Positions 24,023-31,250 of a stretch of DNA of 64,000 nt are shown here, in pieces; position 1 is the first letter of the stretch, and every line of letters begins with the position of its first letter. Position numbers and translations under genes: made by a program. The DNA is from a bacterium (lineage in GTDB: Bacteria > UBP4 > UBA4092 > JAOAEQ01): the NCBI GenBank assembly GCA_026416715.1, contig JAOAEQ010000017.1, positions 1 through 64,000 of the forward strand, in the 5' to 3' direction. The notes under the pieces are model-generated. The model did not search any database, had not been told where the DNA came from, and saw only the letters and a program-made list of their open reading frames with translations.

Positions 24023-25549
24023 ATGCGAACAATTATTTTCGGATTATTGCTGGTTATTCTTCTTTTTCCTGATATGGCAAGAAAAAGCAAAGCACAAGAG
24101 CAAGTTACGTTCCCGCAACGCGAATTTCGCGGTGTATGGATAGCTACGGTTAATAATATCGATTGGCCATCGCGAAAAGGGTTACCAGTTCAGGAACAAC
24201 AGCAGGAGTTAATCAAACTATTCGATTTATGTACTGCACTAAATTTAAATGCGGTAATCTTCCAAGTTCGTCCGGCAGGAGATGCGTTTTATGCATCGAA
24301 ACTCGAACCATGGTCGGTCTGGTTAACCGGAGAACAGGGAAAAGCGCCCGATCCCTATTACGACCCGCTAGAATTCGCAGTTGCTGAATGTCATAAACGT
24401 GGATTAGAACTCCATGCATGGTTTAATCCATATCGTGCCGGGTTTACTTCGCAAGCTTCTTTCGCATCAAATCATATTTCGAAGACTCACCCTGAATATG
24501 TTCATCGGTATGGGCAGAATTATTGGATGGATCCCGGCGAACCGGAAATCAAACAGCATACCGTGAATGTTATTCTTGATGTGGTTCGTCGTTATGATAT
24601 TGACGGCGTACATTTTGACGATTATTTTTATCCGTATGCGGTTCCGGGAGAAGCATTTCCGGATAGCAATTCGTATAGCAAATATACGAGCGCAGGTGGA
24701 AAACTCAAATTAGATGATTGGCGCCGAGAGAATGTCAATTCGATGGTTCAGCAGGTATATCTCGGGATTCTAAAAGAGAAACCGTGGGTAAAATTCGGGA
24801 TTAGCCCGTTCGGAATCTGGCAACCGGGATATCCGCCGGGAATAACCGGATTGAATGCTTATGCGACGTTATATGCTGATTCGCGAAAATGGCTGCAAGA
24901 AGGCTGGGTAGATTATTTCACCCCGCAACTCTATTGGCGGATTGATTCGCCTGGGCAGAGTTATCCGAAACTACTCGAATGGTGGTTACAGCAGAACATT
25001 CGTGCGCGGCATATCTATGCGGGGAACATTCTCGGGGGTGGCGGGTCACGGGCGGCAAGTTCAACCGCAACGACTGCAGCGAATCGCGAAATCGTCAATC
25101 AGGTTAAAATTACTCGAGAACAAAAAGCGCTTGGAAATATCTTCTTTAGCATAAAAGGATTAGTTCGGAATCGCGGAAAAATCCAAGAAGTATTCCAACA
25201 AGAAATATATCCGCAAAAAGCGCTGGTTCCAGCAATGGAATGGAAACGGAATTATTATCCCGAGCAACCCGCACAGGTTACCGCAGTTTCAAAAGGAAAT
25301 ACTATCATGCAGCTCGAATGGAAACCAGTAAGATCCGCTCGAGACGATCGCGCATTATGGCGGTGGGCGATATATCGCCAAATCGGAACGGCAAATTGGG
25401 AACTTATCGCGATTCTGCCTGCTTCGTTAACGAGTTTTGCTGATACCCTACCATCGGATATCAAAATAGCTGATATTCGGTATGCAATAACAGCAGTAGA
25501 CCGTGTATCGAATGAAAGCAAACCGACTATAACCTCGGTTTCTAAATAA
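24023..25549 (+). CDS. Secreted GHL10-family (DUF187) glycosyl-hydrolase-like protein
   Basis: 508 residues. A signal peptide (residues 1-25, cut near KAQEQ) is followed by the GHL10 (DUF187) TIM barrel: FRGVWIATVNNIDWPS at about 36-51, NAVIFQVRPAGDAFY, LELHAWFNPYRAGF, DIDGVHFDDYFYPY near 195-208 and WVKFGISPFGIWQPG. These match the conserved core of the family, in which the acidic residues of FDDYFYP are probable catalytic ones. The last 85 residues look like a fibronectin type III module (VTAVSKGNTIMQLEW, RYAITAVDRVSNES). A role in cell-envelope glycan or surface polysaccharide turnover is likely but unproven. Confidence 0.9.
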   Translation: MRTIIFGLLLVILLFPDMARKSKAQEQVTFPQREFRGVWIATVNNIDWPSRKGLPVQEQQQELIKLFDLCTALNLNAVIFQVRPAGDAFYASKLEPWSVWLTGEQGKAPDPYYDPLEFAVAECHKRGLELHAWFNPYRAGFTSQASFASNHISKTHPEYVHRYGQNYWMDPGEPEIKQHTVNVILDVVRRYDIDGVHFDDYFYPYAVPGEAFPDSNSYSKYTSAGGKLKLDDWRRENVNSMVQQVYLGILKEKPWVKFGISPFGIWQPGYPPGITGLNAYATLYADSRKWLQEGWVDYFTPQLYWRIDSPGQSYPKLLEWWLQQNIRARHIYAGNILGGGGSRAASSTATTAANREIVNQVKITREQKALGNIFFSIKGLVRNRGKIQEVFQQEIYPQKALVPAMEWKRNYYPEQPAQVTAVSKGNTIMQLEWKPVRSARDDRALWRWAIYRQIGTANWELIAILPASLTSFADTLPSDIKIADIRYAITAVDRVSNESKPTITSVSK

Positions 25550-25762: not shown

Positions 25763-26092
25763 TTATATTTCAATTTGAATAGAATCGTTATCTATCTTAA
25801 CTGGGTAAGTAGTTAGATTATGAGTTTCTAGGTTGGGGGTATTGCGGAGCATCGGGAAGCATAATGCTTCTCCAGTTCGGATATCGAACTGGGCGAAATG
25901 CAATGGACAGGTGAGTATATATCCATCAAGGGTTCCGCCGGTATGGAACGGTGCACCGATATGTCCGCAGCGATTTTCAACTGCATAAATCCTGCCCTGT
26001 AGATTCCCGAGCAGGATTCGTTTCCCCTGGACTTCAACGGCAATCAATCCACCGGGCGCAATATCCGATAATTTCGCTACTTCAATGAACAT
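25763..26092 (-). CDS. Rieske 2Fe-2S protein (NirD/ferredoxin-like), second in the cassette
   Basis: 109 residues that consist of a stand-alone Rieske domain. Cluster ligands C-x-H (NRCGHIGAPFH) and C-x2-H (LTCPLHFAQFD) are both present, with the intervening GG turn of the soluble NirD/biphenyl-ferredoxin type. It lacks any membrane segment, so it acts as a small electron carrier. Its start overlaps the end of the FTR-like gene by 11 bases, indicating tight coupling. It is last in a five-gene minus-strand run. Confidence 0.93.
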   Translation of the reverse strand: MFIEVAKLSDIAPGGLIAVEVQGKRILLGNLQGRIYAVENRCGHIGAPFHTGGTLDGYILTCPLHFAQFDIRTGEALCFPMLRNTPNLETHNLTTYPVKIDNDSIQIEI

Positions 26093-26432
26093 CAGCTATT
26101 CTCCTTTTCGCTTCTTCAGCCGAAATCTGCTCTAATTGCTCCGGATTGGTCACATCTTGATGAACGAACAACCCGCACCAACATCGTTTCATCACATCAA
26201 AATGTTCCCGATGATATGGAATACATGGGCAAATAATCCGTAGATTCCGTTCTCGGTCTTTGGTTAACCCTTGGCAGGGACAATAGGGACTACCATGTTT
26301 CTGTTCTAATTTTACTTCCTGTTCGAGCAGAAATTCAACTAATTCCGTATCCGGACTGAATTTATATCCTAACGGTTCAACCACTCTCTGATAGAAATAA
26401 CGCAACGCTTTTTTCCGAGATTCAGAATTCAT
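26082..26432 (-). CDS. Ferredoxin:thioredoxin reductase catalytic-chain-like protein
   Basis: 116 residues. Three cysteine pairs, C51-P-C53, C68-P-C70 and C84-W-C86, reproduce the order CPC, CPC, C-x-C of the FTR catalytic subunit, which passes electrons from a 4Fe-4S cluster to a disulfide. There is no gene for the plant-type variable chain here; stand-alone FTR catalytic proteins are known from anaerobes and archaea and use other partners. Neighbouring Rieske and glutaredoxin proteins are candidate donors and acceptors. Confidence 0.9.
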   Translation of the reverse strand: MNSESRKKALRYFYQRVVEPLGYKFSPDTELVEFLLEQEVKLEQKHGSPYCPCQGLTKDRERNLRIICPCIPYHREHFDVMKRCWCGLFVHQDVTNPEQLEQISAEEAKRRIADVH

Positions 26433-26525
26433 TCGGTTATGTTATAGTCGGCAGTTACCGGTGGTTAGTCTCAAAACAAAAAACCGACAACTGTTTTACC
26501 ATTTGAATTTACATCGTTGAATGTA

Positions 26526-26780
26526 TTATGACGTTAATCCTAACGCTTCTAGGAATTGGTCTGGATGATAACCAATGATAACCTTATCCCCGATGAGTAC
26601 AACCGGAGTTGCGGTTGACCCAGAAATATCCAACATTTTCTGAAACGTTTGCTCCTGTTCATCTTCATCCAACAAGTCGCAATCTACATAGTCAAATGGA
26701 ATGTTCCGTTCTTCAAAAAACTGTTTGGTCTTCTCACACCATGGACAAGTACTTAACGCATAAATAAATACTTTTTTCAT
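26526..26780 (-). CDS. Glutaredoxin
   Basis: 84 residues, a complete glutaredoxin with the active-site C12-P-W-C15 and the cis-proline loop TATPVVLIGDKVIIGY near 55-71 (TVP-like). The CPWC rather than CPYC motif is seen in several stand-alone bacterial glutaredoxins. It lies 5 bases after the first Rieske gene and 93 before the FTR-like gene, so a thiol-disulfide partner of the FTR-like protein is likely. Confidence 0.93.
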   Translation of the reverse strand: MKKVFIYALSTCPWCEKTKQFFEERNIPFDYVDCDLLDEDEQEQTFQKMLDISGSTATPVVLIGDKVIIGYHPDQFLEALGLTS

Positions 26781-26785
26781 AGTAT

Positions 26786-27097
26786 TTAATCCTTCAAATT
26801 AATATATATTTTCCCAGCTTCTCGTTTCAATGCATAGATTGGGATTTTGATTTCTTTCGCTTCGACCATTTGTCCTGTGCGGATATCGAATTTCCATGCA
26901 TGGCAAGGACAGGCGAGAATAAATCCATCGAGTTTCCCGGTGTGAAGCGGACACCCCATATGGGCGCAGATATTCGATATCGCATACATCCGCTCGCGCT
27001 GTTTAATCAATAAAATCGGGATACCTTTCGGAGAAACCAAATGTATCCGATTTTCGGCTATCTTATTTTCATCTATAACATAATGCCAAGACGACAT
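26786..27097 (-). CDS. Rieske 2Fe-2S protein, first in the cassette
   Basis: 103 residues forming a stand-alone Rieske domain: C-x-H in CAHMGCPLHTG and C-x2-H in CPCHAWKFDIRTGQ. It resembles the second Rieske protein (25763-26092) closely enough to be a paralogue; an additional C in GCP and in CPC is not shared. It starts 30 bases after the transporter gene on the same strand. Like its partner it has no membrane helix. Confidence 0.93.
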   Translation of the reverse strand: MSSWHYVIDENKIAENRIHLVSPKGIPILLIKQRERMYAISNICAHMGCPLHTGKLDGFILACPCHAWKFDIRTGQMVEAKEIKIPIYALKREAGKIYINLKD

Positions 27098-27127: not shown

Positions 27128-28753
27128 TTATAAATAACTCATTGCAGAAATGACTAACCCAATCGCTGCAAGAACCCAGATATATGGAATGAGCTTTTTC
27201 GTTATCGCGATAACATCTACTCCGAGATAACTGGCAATCCAGACATTATGGGTATTGGTTGGGTCGCAAACTCCTTGAATTGCACCGACGGATATAAATA
27301 ATCCCATAATCGCTGGCGGAGGTAACGTTCCCGTCGCTAGCATTATCCCCGCAAGTCCAGAACCCATCCCCCAGACATTTAACGGACCGCGATATAACGC
27401 TAACGGTGCGAGTAGAGTGAATACTACAAGATATCCGAGTCTACTACTGGGAATAATGCTCGATAACAGCGGTTGTAAATATCCTTTAACGGTCTCCAAG
27501 GTAACCGATTTTAATAGCATCCCGATGCCAATCATTAACAATACTGCGGGAAGAACACTTTCTGCGCCTTCAAACAGCGCTTGCGTAAACGATTTGATAG
27601 CTCCTTTCTCCCAAGTAGTGATTAACCCCCAGATTAATCCGGCAATAAACGCAGCAAAAAATGGTACCTTGAATAATAAAACTAAAATGATCGGTACGAG
27701 CGGAGTCAGGAGCGCTAGAATACTGATTTTCTTTTTCGTCGGTTCCTCCGTTTGAATTTCTTCTGCCCAATAATGCACCATATTTTTTTTGCGTAATCCG
27801 ATAAGAATAAAAATTAATCCGATAAGAATGTATAATCCGGCAATTTTGATTGCAAAAGCACGGGTGATATCGGTTGGAACCCCGAGCGTATTTTCATAGA
27901 ACACCCAGCTACCAGGGAATAATGAGCCGCCAGCACAAACTCCAATTAACATTACCCCTGCAGCGATTAACGGCGGCGTCCCGAGCGAAAGCATAATCGG
28001 GAAGATAATACTGCCGACCATAATAATCGCACCTAATCCCCCGAGCGTGATAAACAATCCGGCAGTAACCAGCATCATAACAATAGCGACAACGACCGGT
28101 TTATCTCCCGCAAGCTCTGCTGCGATTCGGATGATCGCTTCTGCGATTCCTTTTTTCCGAACGAAAAGCGCGAGCATCCCGCCGAATAATGCTAACGTAT
28201 ACGCTTCATGCAAACGCAATGACCCTTCGCCGATAACTACTTTCAATACATCATTATTCGCTGCTAAATCGCGTAGGTAACTGAACGATTTACTCAATCC
28301 ACTCGTCGTCAATTTCGTCCAGATTTGCGAGCCGTATGAAGTCAAAATGATTACTTCCCGTTCGGTAAGTTCAGCCGATTTACCATATTGGATCCCAAGA
28401 TAATAGGTTTGGCCATCAAATAGCCGCCGAGGAATAGTCCTACTATTCCCTAGGATAACTGAATACGACCTATTCGTTACTTTAACCGACTGCGTTTCCG
28501 ACCATAACGGTGTTCCGCCGGTTGATTCACTATAGAGACTAAACGTTATGTTTTGCGATTCTGCTGGTGCTAGCTGAACTGTCTCCGGAACTATACCTTG
28601 ATAGCTACTGCCAAGAAAAAGTAACGGAATACTGCCGATAATCGCAAATAGAATCGCCATAAGCGGTAACGCTAACAACGCAGAAATTTTATTCAGATAC
28701 ATTAATACCATCATGATTAAAAAGATTACTATTAATACTATTCCGATAACCAT
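27128..28753 (-). CDS. Ion-transporter-superfamily (CitMHS/GntP-like) permease with an inserted surface-type beta domain
   Basis: 541 residues. Two N-terminal membrane helices (3-21 and 25-48) and about ten more from 185 onward, with the hairpin-type segments GLGAIIMVGSIIFPIMLS and VCAGGSLFPGSWVFYEN of the ion-transporter superfamily. Between them, residues about 55-150 form a soluble beta-rich insert (TFSLYSESTGGTPLW, VILGNSRTIP, LFDGQTYYLGIQYG). The insert resembles the repeat found in secreted surface proteins of the type LYDAxTGG...LFDGxxxYLGIxVG. I know no transporter family with this module. A strong ribosome site (AGGAGGATACCC) fixes the start. The substrate is unknown. Confidence 0.8.
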   Translation of the reverse strand: MVIGIVLIVIFLIMMVLMYLNKISALLALPLMAILFAIIGSIPLLFLGSSYQGIVPETVQLAPAESQNITFSLYSESTGGTPLWSETQSVKVTNRSYSVILGNSRTIPRRLFDGQTYYLGIQYGKSAELTEREVIILTSYGSQIWTKLTTSGLSKSFSYLRDLAANNDVLKVVIGEGSLRLHEAYTLALFGGMLALFVRKKGIAEAIIRIAAELAGDKPVVVAIVMMLVTAGLFITLGGLGAIIMVGSIIFPIMLSLGTPPLIAAGVMLIGVCAGGSLFPGSWVFYENTLGVPTDITRAFAIKIAGLYILIGLIFILIGLRKKNMVHYWAEEIQTEEPTKKKISILALLTPLVPIILVLLFKVPFFAAFIAGLIWGLITTWEKGAIKSFTQALFEGAESVLPAVLLMIGIGMLLKSVTLETVKGYLQPLLSSIIPSSRLGYLVVFTLLAPLALYRGPLNVWGMGSGLAGIMLATGTLPPPAIMGLFISVGAIQGVCDPTNTHNVWIASYLGVDVIAITKKLIPYIWVLAAIGLVISAMSYL

Positions 28754-28884
28754 GGGTATCCTCCTGTTAAATAGTTAAATAGTTAAGTTTAATAGATTCA
28801 ATTCACCATAGACATAAAAATCACTACTATTTACCTCCATTATATTCTGTGTATCTTTATGCCTTAGCGGTTAGGTGCAGAAGT

Positions 28885-30099
28885 TTATTTCATATTTCCA
28901 AGATCGATAAAAATATTGGGGAACGTAGTCATCCAACTATAACAGAAAACGACTACGCCGTTACAGCCCATATCTCGCGCAAGTTGAATCTGCTGGGTTA
29001 ACTCCGGATGTTTCGTTCCTGCACGAACTGCTAATCCCGGATACACCGGAACAACTCCAGAGTTTGATTGCGATATTTTTATCTCTTCTTGAATCCCATC
29101 AAGGGAATAACGATAACACATCGGAGTTAAAAAATCTAAATATCCTTCCTGACACCAGGTCGCCCAATCCTGCAATCGGCTATCATGAAATCGGTTTTTA
29201 TAATAATCTGGGAAAACGGCGGCTGATAATTTCACCGATTTATTCTTCTGCTTAATCTCTTGGTTAATCATCGCTACGACATCCGTCACCTGTTGTTCTC
29301 GGAATCGCGACCATTCTAGCCATTTAACGGTATCTTTAGTTCGGTCAATCGTTCTCGGGTCATAAGCATATAATCGTTTAAATTTATCGAGTGCATAAGC
29401 ATTATAACCGAATTGGCTGGTTCCCGCAGCGTAGCGGATATAATCGAGATTAATCCCAGCGATCGCATAGGTTGAGCAGAGTTCAGCAACTAATTCTTTT
29501 AATTTCTGCTGAACCGCAGGCACTGATGGATTAACAAAATAATGGTTCGATTCGAATTTTTCAGTCGTTATACCATTTATATCCAAATCTAACCAATCCG
29601 GATGTTCATCGAGAAGCGGCGTTTGCGGATTATCCGTTTCCGGGCTTGGTCGCCAATAAAATATTTCCAGCCAACAATGGATTTCAAGATCCCGTTTCTT
29701 AGCTTCGTTAATAAATGTCTGAAGAACATTTTTTCCGATATACTCCGGCCGTTGTGGAAAAACTCTGCTCGGATAGATAGTAAATCCATGGTAGAACGTT
29801 TCAACAAACGCCATGGTAAACCGTGCGGTGGTTAAATCATCCAGAATTTTCGGTATTTCATTTATATCTTTCGGAGGACGAATCCATACCCCACGGTGTT
29901 CAATCAGTTTCGGCTGAGTATACTGAGTTCCTTTGTTTTTTGAAAAAACGGTGATACAACTATTTACCGTAAACAATAAAACGAGAGTGAAAATTATGGA
30001 AAGAAAACCAACGTGAATCTGAACGGGTTGATGCCTTTTCGGTCTTCTATTCTTCGGTTTTTTCGTCAATCCAGATAATCCCATATGCAATGCATACAA
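28885..30099 (-). CDS. GHL10-family (DUF187-like) glycosyl-hydrolase-like membrane-anchored protein
   Basis: 404 residues. A basic N-terminus (KKPKNRRPKRH) and one membrane helix (about 31-52) anchor the GHL10 barrel outside. Core motifs: HRGVWIRPP, FAFVETFYHG-like segment, LEIHCWLEIFYWRP and AGINLDYIRYAAG, then KLSAAVFPDY and LDFLTPMCYRYS. It is a paralogue of the secreted GHL10 protein at 24023 but shorter and without the fibronectin module. The TTG at 30099 abuts the LacI stop; an ATG at 30084 is as likely a start. Confidence 0.87.
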   Translation of the reverse strand: MYALHMGLSGLTKKPKNRRPKRHQPVQIHVGFLSIIFTLVLLFTVNSCITVFSKNKGTQYTQPKLIEHRGVWIRPPKDINEIPKILDDLTTARFTMAFVETFYHGFTIYPSRVFPQRPEYIGKNVLQTFINEAKKRDLEIHCWLEIFYWRPSPETDNPQTPLLDEHPDWLDLDINGITTEKFESNHYFVNPSVPAVQQKLKELVAELCSTYAIAGINLDYIRYAAGTSQFGYNAYALDKFKRLYAYDPRTIDRTKDTVKWLEWSRFREQQVTDVVAMINQEIKQKNKSVKLSAAVFPDYYKNRFHDSRLQDWATWCQEGYLDFLTPMCYRYSLDGIQEEIKISQSNSGVVPVYPGLAVRAGTKHPELTQQIQLARDMGCNGVVVFCYSWMTTFPNIFIDLGNMK

Positions 30100-31107
30100 C
30101 TACTTTTTCTTCGCACCACAGGATTCGCGAATAACTAATTCCGTTTCCAACAGTGAATCTTTAACTGGTTTCCCGCTAATTTTCTGAATGAGTTTCTCAG
30201 CGGCTATCGCGCCCATCTGATATTTCGGTTGTGATACCGTGGTTAACGGTATTTCAACCAATTCACAGATACTCAAATCATCTGTGCCAACTAGCGCGAT
30301 ATCTTTAGGAATAGTTAATTTCGCGTTTCGAATAACCTGCATCGCACCAACCGCTACCGTATCACAAACTGCATACACTGCCGTCGGACGTGGTGACATT
30401 TGCAGGACTTTTTCCATCGCTTGTGCGCCGGCTGAAATCGTAAATCCGCTTTGGATAATTCTTTTTCCATTTGGGTCAAGTTTATATTCACATAACGCTT
30501 TCTGAAATCCAGCCAGCCGATGCCGGCTCAACATCGCATGCGGGTTTCCTGCTAAATGAACAATATCCCGATGCCCAAGTTGTAATAAATGCTTCGTTGC
30601 AGTATATCCGATTTTTTCATCATCGACACTAACAAACAATCCTTTTACTCCTTGAACCCGTGAACCGATATAGACTACGGGTTTCTTCTCTCGATAAATA
30701 ATTTCATCTAAGTCAATCACATCACTCCCGAAAACCGGTGAAATAATCAACCCGTCAACGCCCTTACTTAACAACAATTCAACATACTTTATTTCTCGTT
30801 CTGTATCGCCTTCTGAAGTATTTAAAATAATACTATACCCTTCTTTTGCAGCAACTTCTTCTATCCCTTGAATAATTTCCGGGAAAAATGATGACATGAT
30901 ATCCGGAACCACTAACCCGATAAGAAACGTCTGTTTTTTAACCAAACCTCGCGCCATGATATTCGGGCGGTAGTTTAACTGTTTTGCGATGCGAAGCACC
31001 CGTTTTTTCGTCGACTCACTTATTCTCGGGTCTTGATGGAATACGCGAGAAACAGTCGTATGCGATACATTTGCACGTTTCGCAATATGTTTGATAGTTA
31101 CGCGCAT
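30100..31107 (-). CDS. LacI/GalR-family transcriptional regulator
   Basis: 335 residues. Helix-turn-helix at 3-26 (TIKHIAKRANVSHTTVSRVF), hinge KQLNYRPNIMARGL, then the effector domain with IGLVVPDIMSSFFPEIIQG and DGLIISPVFGSD. Conserved VGTDDLSICELVEIPLTTV near 275 closes the binding cleft. It directly precedes the GHL10 gene without a gap, so the repressor likely controls its own operon and the hydrolase. An imperfect palindrome at 31137-31155 is a possible operator. Confidence 0.95.
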   Translation of the reverse strand: MRVTIKHIAKRANVSHTTVSRVFHQDPRISESTKKRVLRIAKQLNYRPNIMARGLVKKQTFLIGLVVPDIMSSFFPEIIQGIEEVAAKEGYSIILNTSEGDTEREIKYVELLLSKGVDGLIISPVFGSDVIDLDEIIYREKKPVVYIGSRVQGVKGLFVSVDDEKIGYTATKHLLQLGHRDIVHLAGNPHAMLSRHRLAGFQKALCEYKLDPNGKRIIQSGFTISAGAQAMEKVLQMSPRPTAVYAVCDTVAVGAMQVIRNAKLTIPKDIALVGTDDLSICELVEIPLTTVSQPKYQMGAIAAEKLIQKISGKPVKDSLLETELVIRESCGAKKK

Positions 31108-31155: not shown

Positions 31156-31250
31156 ACGGATGAAATCTCTCCAATGAAATCCACACATTACGTTGAAAAT
31201 TATAACGTAATCTGTCTCTATTAACAATAAATTGATTGTGATAGTTGCGT

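Follow-up and report, generated by a model that had tools for sequence, protein, structure and literature searches.

A domain of the secreted fibre-protein kind inserted between membrane helices 2 and 3 of a bacterial ion-transporter-superfamily permease

We found that a permease encoded in the window, by which we mean the whole 64,000-nucleotide stretch of DNA that was analysed, carries within its chain a beta-sandwich domain of the kind that heads secreted fibre-like proteins. The insert is about 93 residues long, lies in frame and occupies the loop between membrane helices 2 and 3. The architecture is real, well supported and so far unique, and it is built from two known kinds of part. Taken as a whole, the best explanation is that the permease gained the beta sandwich as an external contact module, a reading to which we give about an even chance of being right.

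The open reading frame lies intact on the minus strand exactly where the original prediction had placed it (Table 1). It opens with an ATG that has a strong ribosome-binding site, AGGAGG, 6 nt to its 5' side (28760-28765, minus strand), and it runs without an internal stop to a single terminal stop. All three of the motifs that had been quoted for it, TFSLYSESTGGTPLW, VILGNSRTIP and LFDGQTYYLGIQYG, are present. Because the first two membrane helices precede the insert and the next one spans residues 182-200 in the AlphaFold2 model, the domain does sit between helices 2 and 3. It had been described as soluble and the hydropathy agrees: the peak 19-residue value within residues 55-150 is 0.51, compared with 3.23 for helix 1 and 2.50 for helix 2. 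The predicted domain limits of 55-150 captured a real stretch but are better moved to about 48-140, the residues from about 152 to 178 being linker helices (152-166 and 168-178 in the AlphaFold2 model). Residues 156-170 of this linker (SYLRDLAANNDVLKV) are similar to the FFLRDTFAASNLLKV of the nearest relative.

Table 1. Positions of the permease, its parts, the adjoining genes and the other copy of the domain in the same genome
Feature	Position	Strand	Basis or remark
Whole permease ORF	27128..28753	-	541 aa
Membrane helix 1, residues 2-19	28697..28750	-	AlphaFold2 model, pLDDT about 90; alignable in homologues
Membrane helix 2, residues 25-40, conserved SALLALPLMA motif	28634..28681	-	Homologue alignment and AlphaFold2 model
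Inserted beta-sandwich domain, residues 48-140	28334..28612	-	Profile match, shuffle control, model
Linker helices, residues 141-178	28220..28333	-	Model and alignment
Remaining transporter core, residues 182-541, motifs LALYRGPLNVWGMG and CDPTNTHNVWIA	27131..28210	-	Model pLDDT > 90 for most helices
GHL10 glycosyl-hydrolase-like gene, directly upstream of the permease	28885..30099	-	Pfam PF02638, E = 2.8e-31
LacI-family regulator adjoining GHL10	30100..31107	-	Pfam LacI and Peripla_BP_3
Other domain copy (L106), start of a 626-aa secreted repeat protein without a Pfam match	G000:C9:48976-49344		

The likeness of the insert to a module of secreted and surface proteins, proposed originally from short motifs, was borne out by profile searches. 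A whole-permease search of 41 genomes returned permeases and, in addition, secreted proteins that matched only about residues 20-157; one of the latter is encoded in the window's own genome. These secreted proteins start with a signal-like stretch, continue into the domain and in many cases go on into collagen-like or fibre-like repeats. The hydrophobic signal-like stretch is directly ahead of the domain in 31 of 33 domain-bearing ORFs. A profile made from 14 secreted proteins, with the window sequence left out, was scored against 5371 ORFs, where it matched the window permease at residues 50-140 (E = 4.4e-18, 63.6 bits) and no other permease. The real insert scored 68.1 bits in a shuffle control, while the best of 2000 shuffles scored 9.9 bits. 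Domain and permease were modelled separately since a joint MAFFT alignment put fragments of the domain in the wrong place. When used alone as the query, the insert found secreted fibre-like proteins only and the permease without its insert found permeases only, the window protein being the sole overlap between the two lists. The insert is, by these sequence criteria, homologous to the N-terminal domain of secreted fibre-like proteins. Its identity to those relatives is 21-35%. In the aligned family it retains the hallmarks Q-G, T-G-G, L-W-x-E, L-G and Y-L-G. Of the PR motif it keeps the R but not the proline (P-R to E-R), and the glycine of the turn is likewise lost (N-G to N-R). The retention of most family-conserved positions and a match of 64-68 bits despite such low identity suggest that the fold has been kept under selection.

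The domain has no family in Pfam. In NCBIfam, 26 of the 28 members of the aligned domain family match NF053851 (Bdello_MAT_N) at E <= 0.01, with scores in the members seen of 24-37 bits that are under the curated 60-bit cut-off. The window insert itself gave no direct match to NF053851, and so lies below the same 60-bit cut-off; it is tied to the matching members through the profile described above. With no Pfam or NCBIfam match of its own, it does not correspond to a known extracellular domain of transporters. On this evidence from sequence, and at a level sub-threshold to NF053851, the insert and the N-terminal, cell-proximal domain of the Bdellovibrio mosaic adhesive trimer (MAT) fibres are related. 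All 21 Bdellovibrio MAT proteins have a beta-rich domain of about 130 residues directly after the signal peptide; it is thought to be cell-proximal, forming the base of a fibre whose ligand-binding site is at the tip, it is presumed to bind an unidentified surface element and it is without a structural homologue in the PDB (PMC10769870). When modelled alone the insert formed a six-strand sandwich with a mean pLDDT of 82.8 and a core above 90, while the single full-length model left the domain unfolded, with residues 45-129 under pLDDT 50. A PDB fold search with the domain gave no confident match (best E 0.047), in agreement with the MAT paper (PMC10769870). There were weak fold matches to small phage proteins (best E 0.003). 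Phage and plasmid records contained no match to the domain and PHROGs gave nothing useful, so a phage origin is not supported.

The carrier had been called an otherwise ordinary permease of the ion-transporter superfamily. Its superfamily membership stands, but the word ordinary needs qualifying: the window permease has no Pfam match up to E = 1, with or without the insert, and no NCBIfam match, and as a single sequence it has no PDB match. A profile of 28 permease homologues had a weak link to the TRAP permease IseQM (E = 5.3e-7), and four of the 28 homologues weakly matched CitMHS. Foldseek with the permease model returned SiaM, NaCT, VcINDY and ArsB, at E = 5e-6 to 1e-3 and TM-scores of about 0.5-0.66. 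Given the IseQM link and these fold matches, without a Pfam or NCBIfam match, the carrier is an unnamed branch of the superfamily with a TRAP-M/DASS-like fold. The family to which it belongs, likewise without a Pfam or NCBIfam model, has the near-invariant motifs LALYRGPLNVWG and CDPTNTHNVWIA (27128-28753 and homologues, L001-L056) and is spread among Sumerlaeota, KSB1, Acidobacteria, Obscuribacterales, Spirosoma and others. Among the homologues, the loop at residues 20-24 has conserved K/R (mean 1.8) and no acidic residues, and the loop at 198-203 also has conserved K/R. Because these positive loops bracket the insert, its loop faces outside the cytoplasm, on the same side where the domain works in its secreted relatives. 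The original prediction had suggested an extracytoplasmic loop, and the secretion of the domain in other hosts (31/33) accords with that suggestion too.

The loop between helices 2 and 3 has 1-24 residues in 47 of the 52 distinct homologues that cover it. In four Sumerlaeota (L002, L003, L042, L001) it reaches 85 residues and includes two additional predicted membrane helices, and in the one phylum-mate compared (UBP4_UBA6127) it has 65 residues of unrelated helical sequence; the domain was absent in all homologues. Such a loop may simply be tolerant of insertion and have taken in a functionless domain as a neutral passenger. This is a serious rival, favoured by the extension of the loop in other ways in five relatives, by the presence of the fusion in one genome only and by the long branch on which the permease copy lies in the domain tree. 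We nevertheless consider it unlikely, since the conserved positions and the strong match at low identity suggest that selection has acted on the fold. The single genome and the long branch, together with the two lost hallmarks, count also against the contact-module reading, and selection on the insert is not measurable because the fusion is in one genome only.

No second fusion was found in about 980 genome searches. It was not found in 40 Sumerlaeota, 82 KSB1 and 248 Elusimicrobiota-phylum genomes, in 386 genomes drawn as relatives (at a strict E of 1e-20) or in 148 genomes from the phylum of G060 (at the same strict E of 1e-20 and without a positive control), nor by a pattern scan of 84,980 species that needs short peptide matches. 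A further search of seven genomes missed even the known permease at its threshold. Given the strict E, the missing control, the missed permease and the limits of the pattern scan, the absence of the fusion elsewhere is likely but not proven. Longer matches in KSB1 and Elusimicrobiota-phylum genomes (e.g. G098, G121, G122, G755, G835 and G795) were secreted proteins and not fusions.

The fusion comes from a single draft assembly and no second genome shares it, as would be expected if it were an artefact of assembly or gene prediction. We find that explanation barely credible. The reading frame is kept across both junctions, which lie within a 68.9-kb contig, an internal stop is absent, the insert is typical of the window in GC and GC3 (z 0.65 and 0.16) and the linker behind it is similar to that of a relative. 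Moreover, a source sequence is not found elsewhere in the genome, in which the sole other copy of the domain is 39% identical. The in-frame junctions, the typical composition and the distance of this other copy make a chimera unlikely, and no frameshift or assembly error was seen. Flanking repeats at the insert junctions amounted only to chance matches of 7-8 nt. An origin of the insert from the fibre protein of its own genome is not supported: the two copies do not group in the tree, although the branch is a long one and support is low. Most likely, the external interaction domain was a lineage-specific gain on the transporter scaffold.

By Pfam, the neighbours of the permease are GHL10, LacI, YhhQ, Rieske, glutaredoxin and FTR-beta genes; a TRAP Q subunit and a periplasmic binding protein were not found among the neighbouring genes scanned. 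The GHL10 neighbour is likely to be a lipoprotein, with a lipobox (LLFTVNSC) that was judged by eye. The one phylum-mate genome compared also has a GHL10 gene, 47% identical, immediately upstream of its permease, and the keeping of this neighbour makes the phylum-mate permease very probably an ortholog. The GHL10 product is a peptidoglycan-hydrolase-like protein, and E. coli DigH belongs to the GHL10 family. DigH cuts denuded peptidoglycan strands (PMC12288456). A promoter-like site ahead of the LacI gene overlaps a 12-nt inverted repeat (ACACATTACGTT / AACGTAATCTGT, 31183-31215), which is possibly the operator of the lacI-GHL10-permease group. In the same region, two Rieske ferredoxin-like genes, one glutaredoxin gene and one ferredoxin-thioredoxin reductase beta-like gene form a compact cluster (25763-27097, minus strand), and a second GHL10 gene lies nearby (24023-25549, plus strand). 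Of the 58 loci compared, 28 have a Hydantoinase_A/oxoprolinase gene near the permease, and one copy of such a gene is present in each of the six genomes checked, among them the window's own (G000:C23:32819-33742). From gene neighbours alone we infer that the substrate may be a small carboxylate or a cyclic amide.

The domain might serve in substrate capture or gating, acting on the outer face as a tethered binding protein would, by binding the substrate or funnelling it. The nearest solved folds are those of TRAP transporters, which use a periplasmic binding protein, and the adjacent hydrolase could release a substrate. Yet the domain is an Ig-like sandwich without a confident PDB match, a conserved pocket is not demonstrated, 47 of the 52 homologues manage without any extension and in fibres the domain sits at the base and not at the ligand-binding tip (PMC10769870), all of which leaves capture distinctly improbable.

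Less probable still is like-with-like docking, in which the permease would hold a secreted fibre protein that bears the same head domain. We know of no demonstration of this head domain binding its own kind. The genome has exactly one other copy, which heads the 626-aa secreted repeat protein (G000:C9:48976), and for MAT heads the presumed binding partner is a surface element (PMC10769870). Against this, the tree does not place the genome's two copies together, and the partners may sit on different membranes if the cell has an outer membrane. Marginally fainter again is the prospect of a membrane-bound docking site through which the permease would draw in surface proteins that share its head, or be drawn in by them, so that nutrient uptake is coupled to a surface fibre or adhesin. 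If true, docking of this sort would offer a first candidate for the way in which these heads are anchored to the cell.

In the contact-module reading that we prefer, the conserved helical core would transport by the elevator mechanism usual in the superfamily, while the domain would be an external contact module borne by the early part of the scaffold, apart from the transport step. This placement on the scaffold is suggested by the general layout of the superfamily. In the transporter dimer the domain may pack against the other copy of itself, or it may hold on to an envelope protein nearby; it is not yet possible to tell docking, dimer contact and substrate capture from one another or from a neutral passenger. 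Whichever applies, the permease is a clear-cut instance of a domain moving from secreted fibre proteins to a transporter, and the loop that took it in is one that relatives have lengthened by other means. A membrane-tethered head is also a handy probe for the head's binding partner, which the MAT paper leaves unnamed (PMC10769870).

The insert resembles Bdello_MAT_N in being beta-rich, extracytoplasmic and related in sequence, but it does not follow a signal peptide: two membrane helices come before it and the transporter core after it, both of its ends lead into membrane helices and the MAT fibre and tip are absent. The carrier resembles TRAP SiaM/SiaQM and DASS/CitMHS, its best fold matches among solved structures, and differs from them in its beta insert and in having no TRAP partner genes adjacent. 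Its closest relatives, the permeases of Sumerlaeota and UBP4_UBA6127 (46-57% overall identity), also have an extended loop, although the extension is a pair of predicted membrane helices in the former and a soluble, helical stretch in the latter, and in neither a beta domain. A parallel in architecture is offered by human Oca2, a eukaryotic protein of the ion-transporter superfamily that has been modelled with a luminal beta sandwich near its N-terminus; this enlarges the modelled dimer interface, and Oca2 was the only superfamily member with a beta sandwich in a comparison with solved structures (PMC10372470). The Oca2 domain is an eight-stranded, GOLD-like domain of 130 residues ahead of the first helix of the transporter fold, whereas the sandwich in the window permease lies between helices 2 and 3. 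The window permease is a bacterial member of the superfamily with an external beta sandwich, a feature that the Oca2 study described for no other protein among those it compared (PMC10372470).
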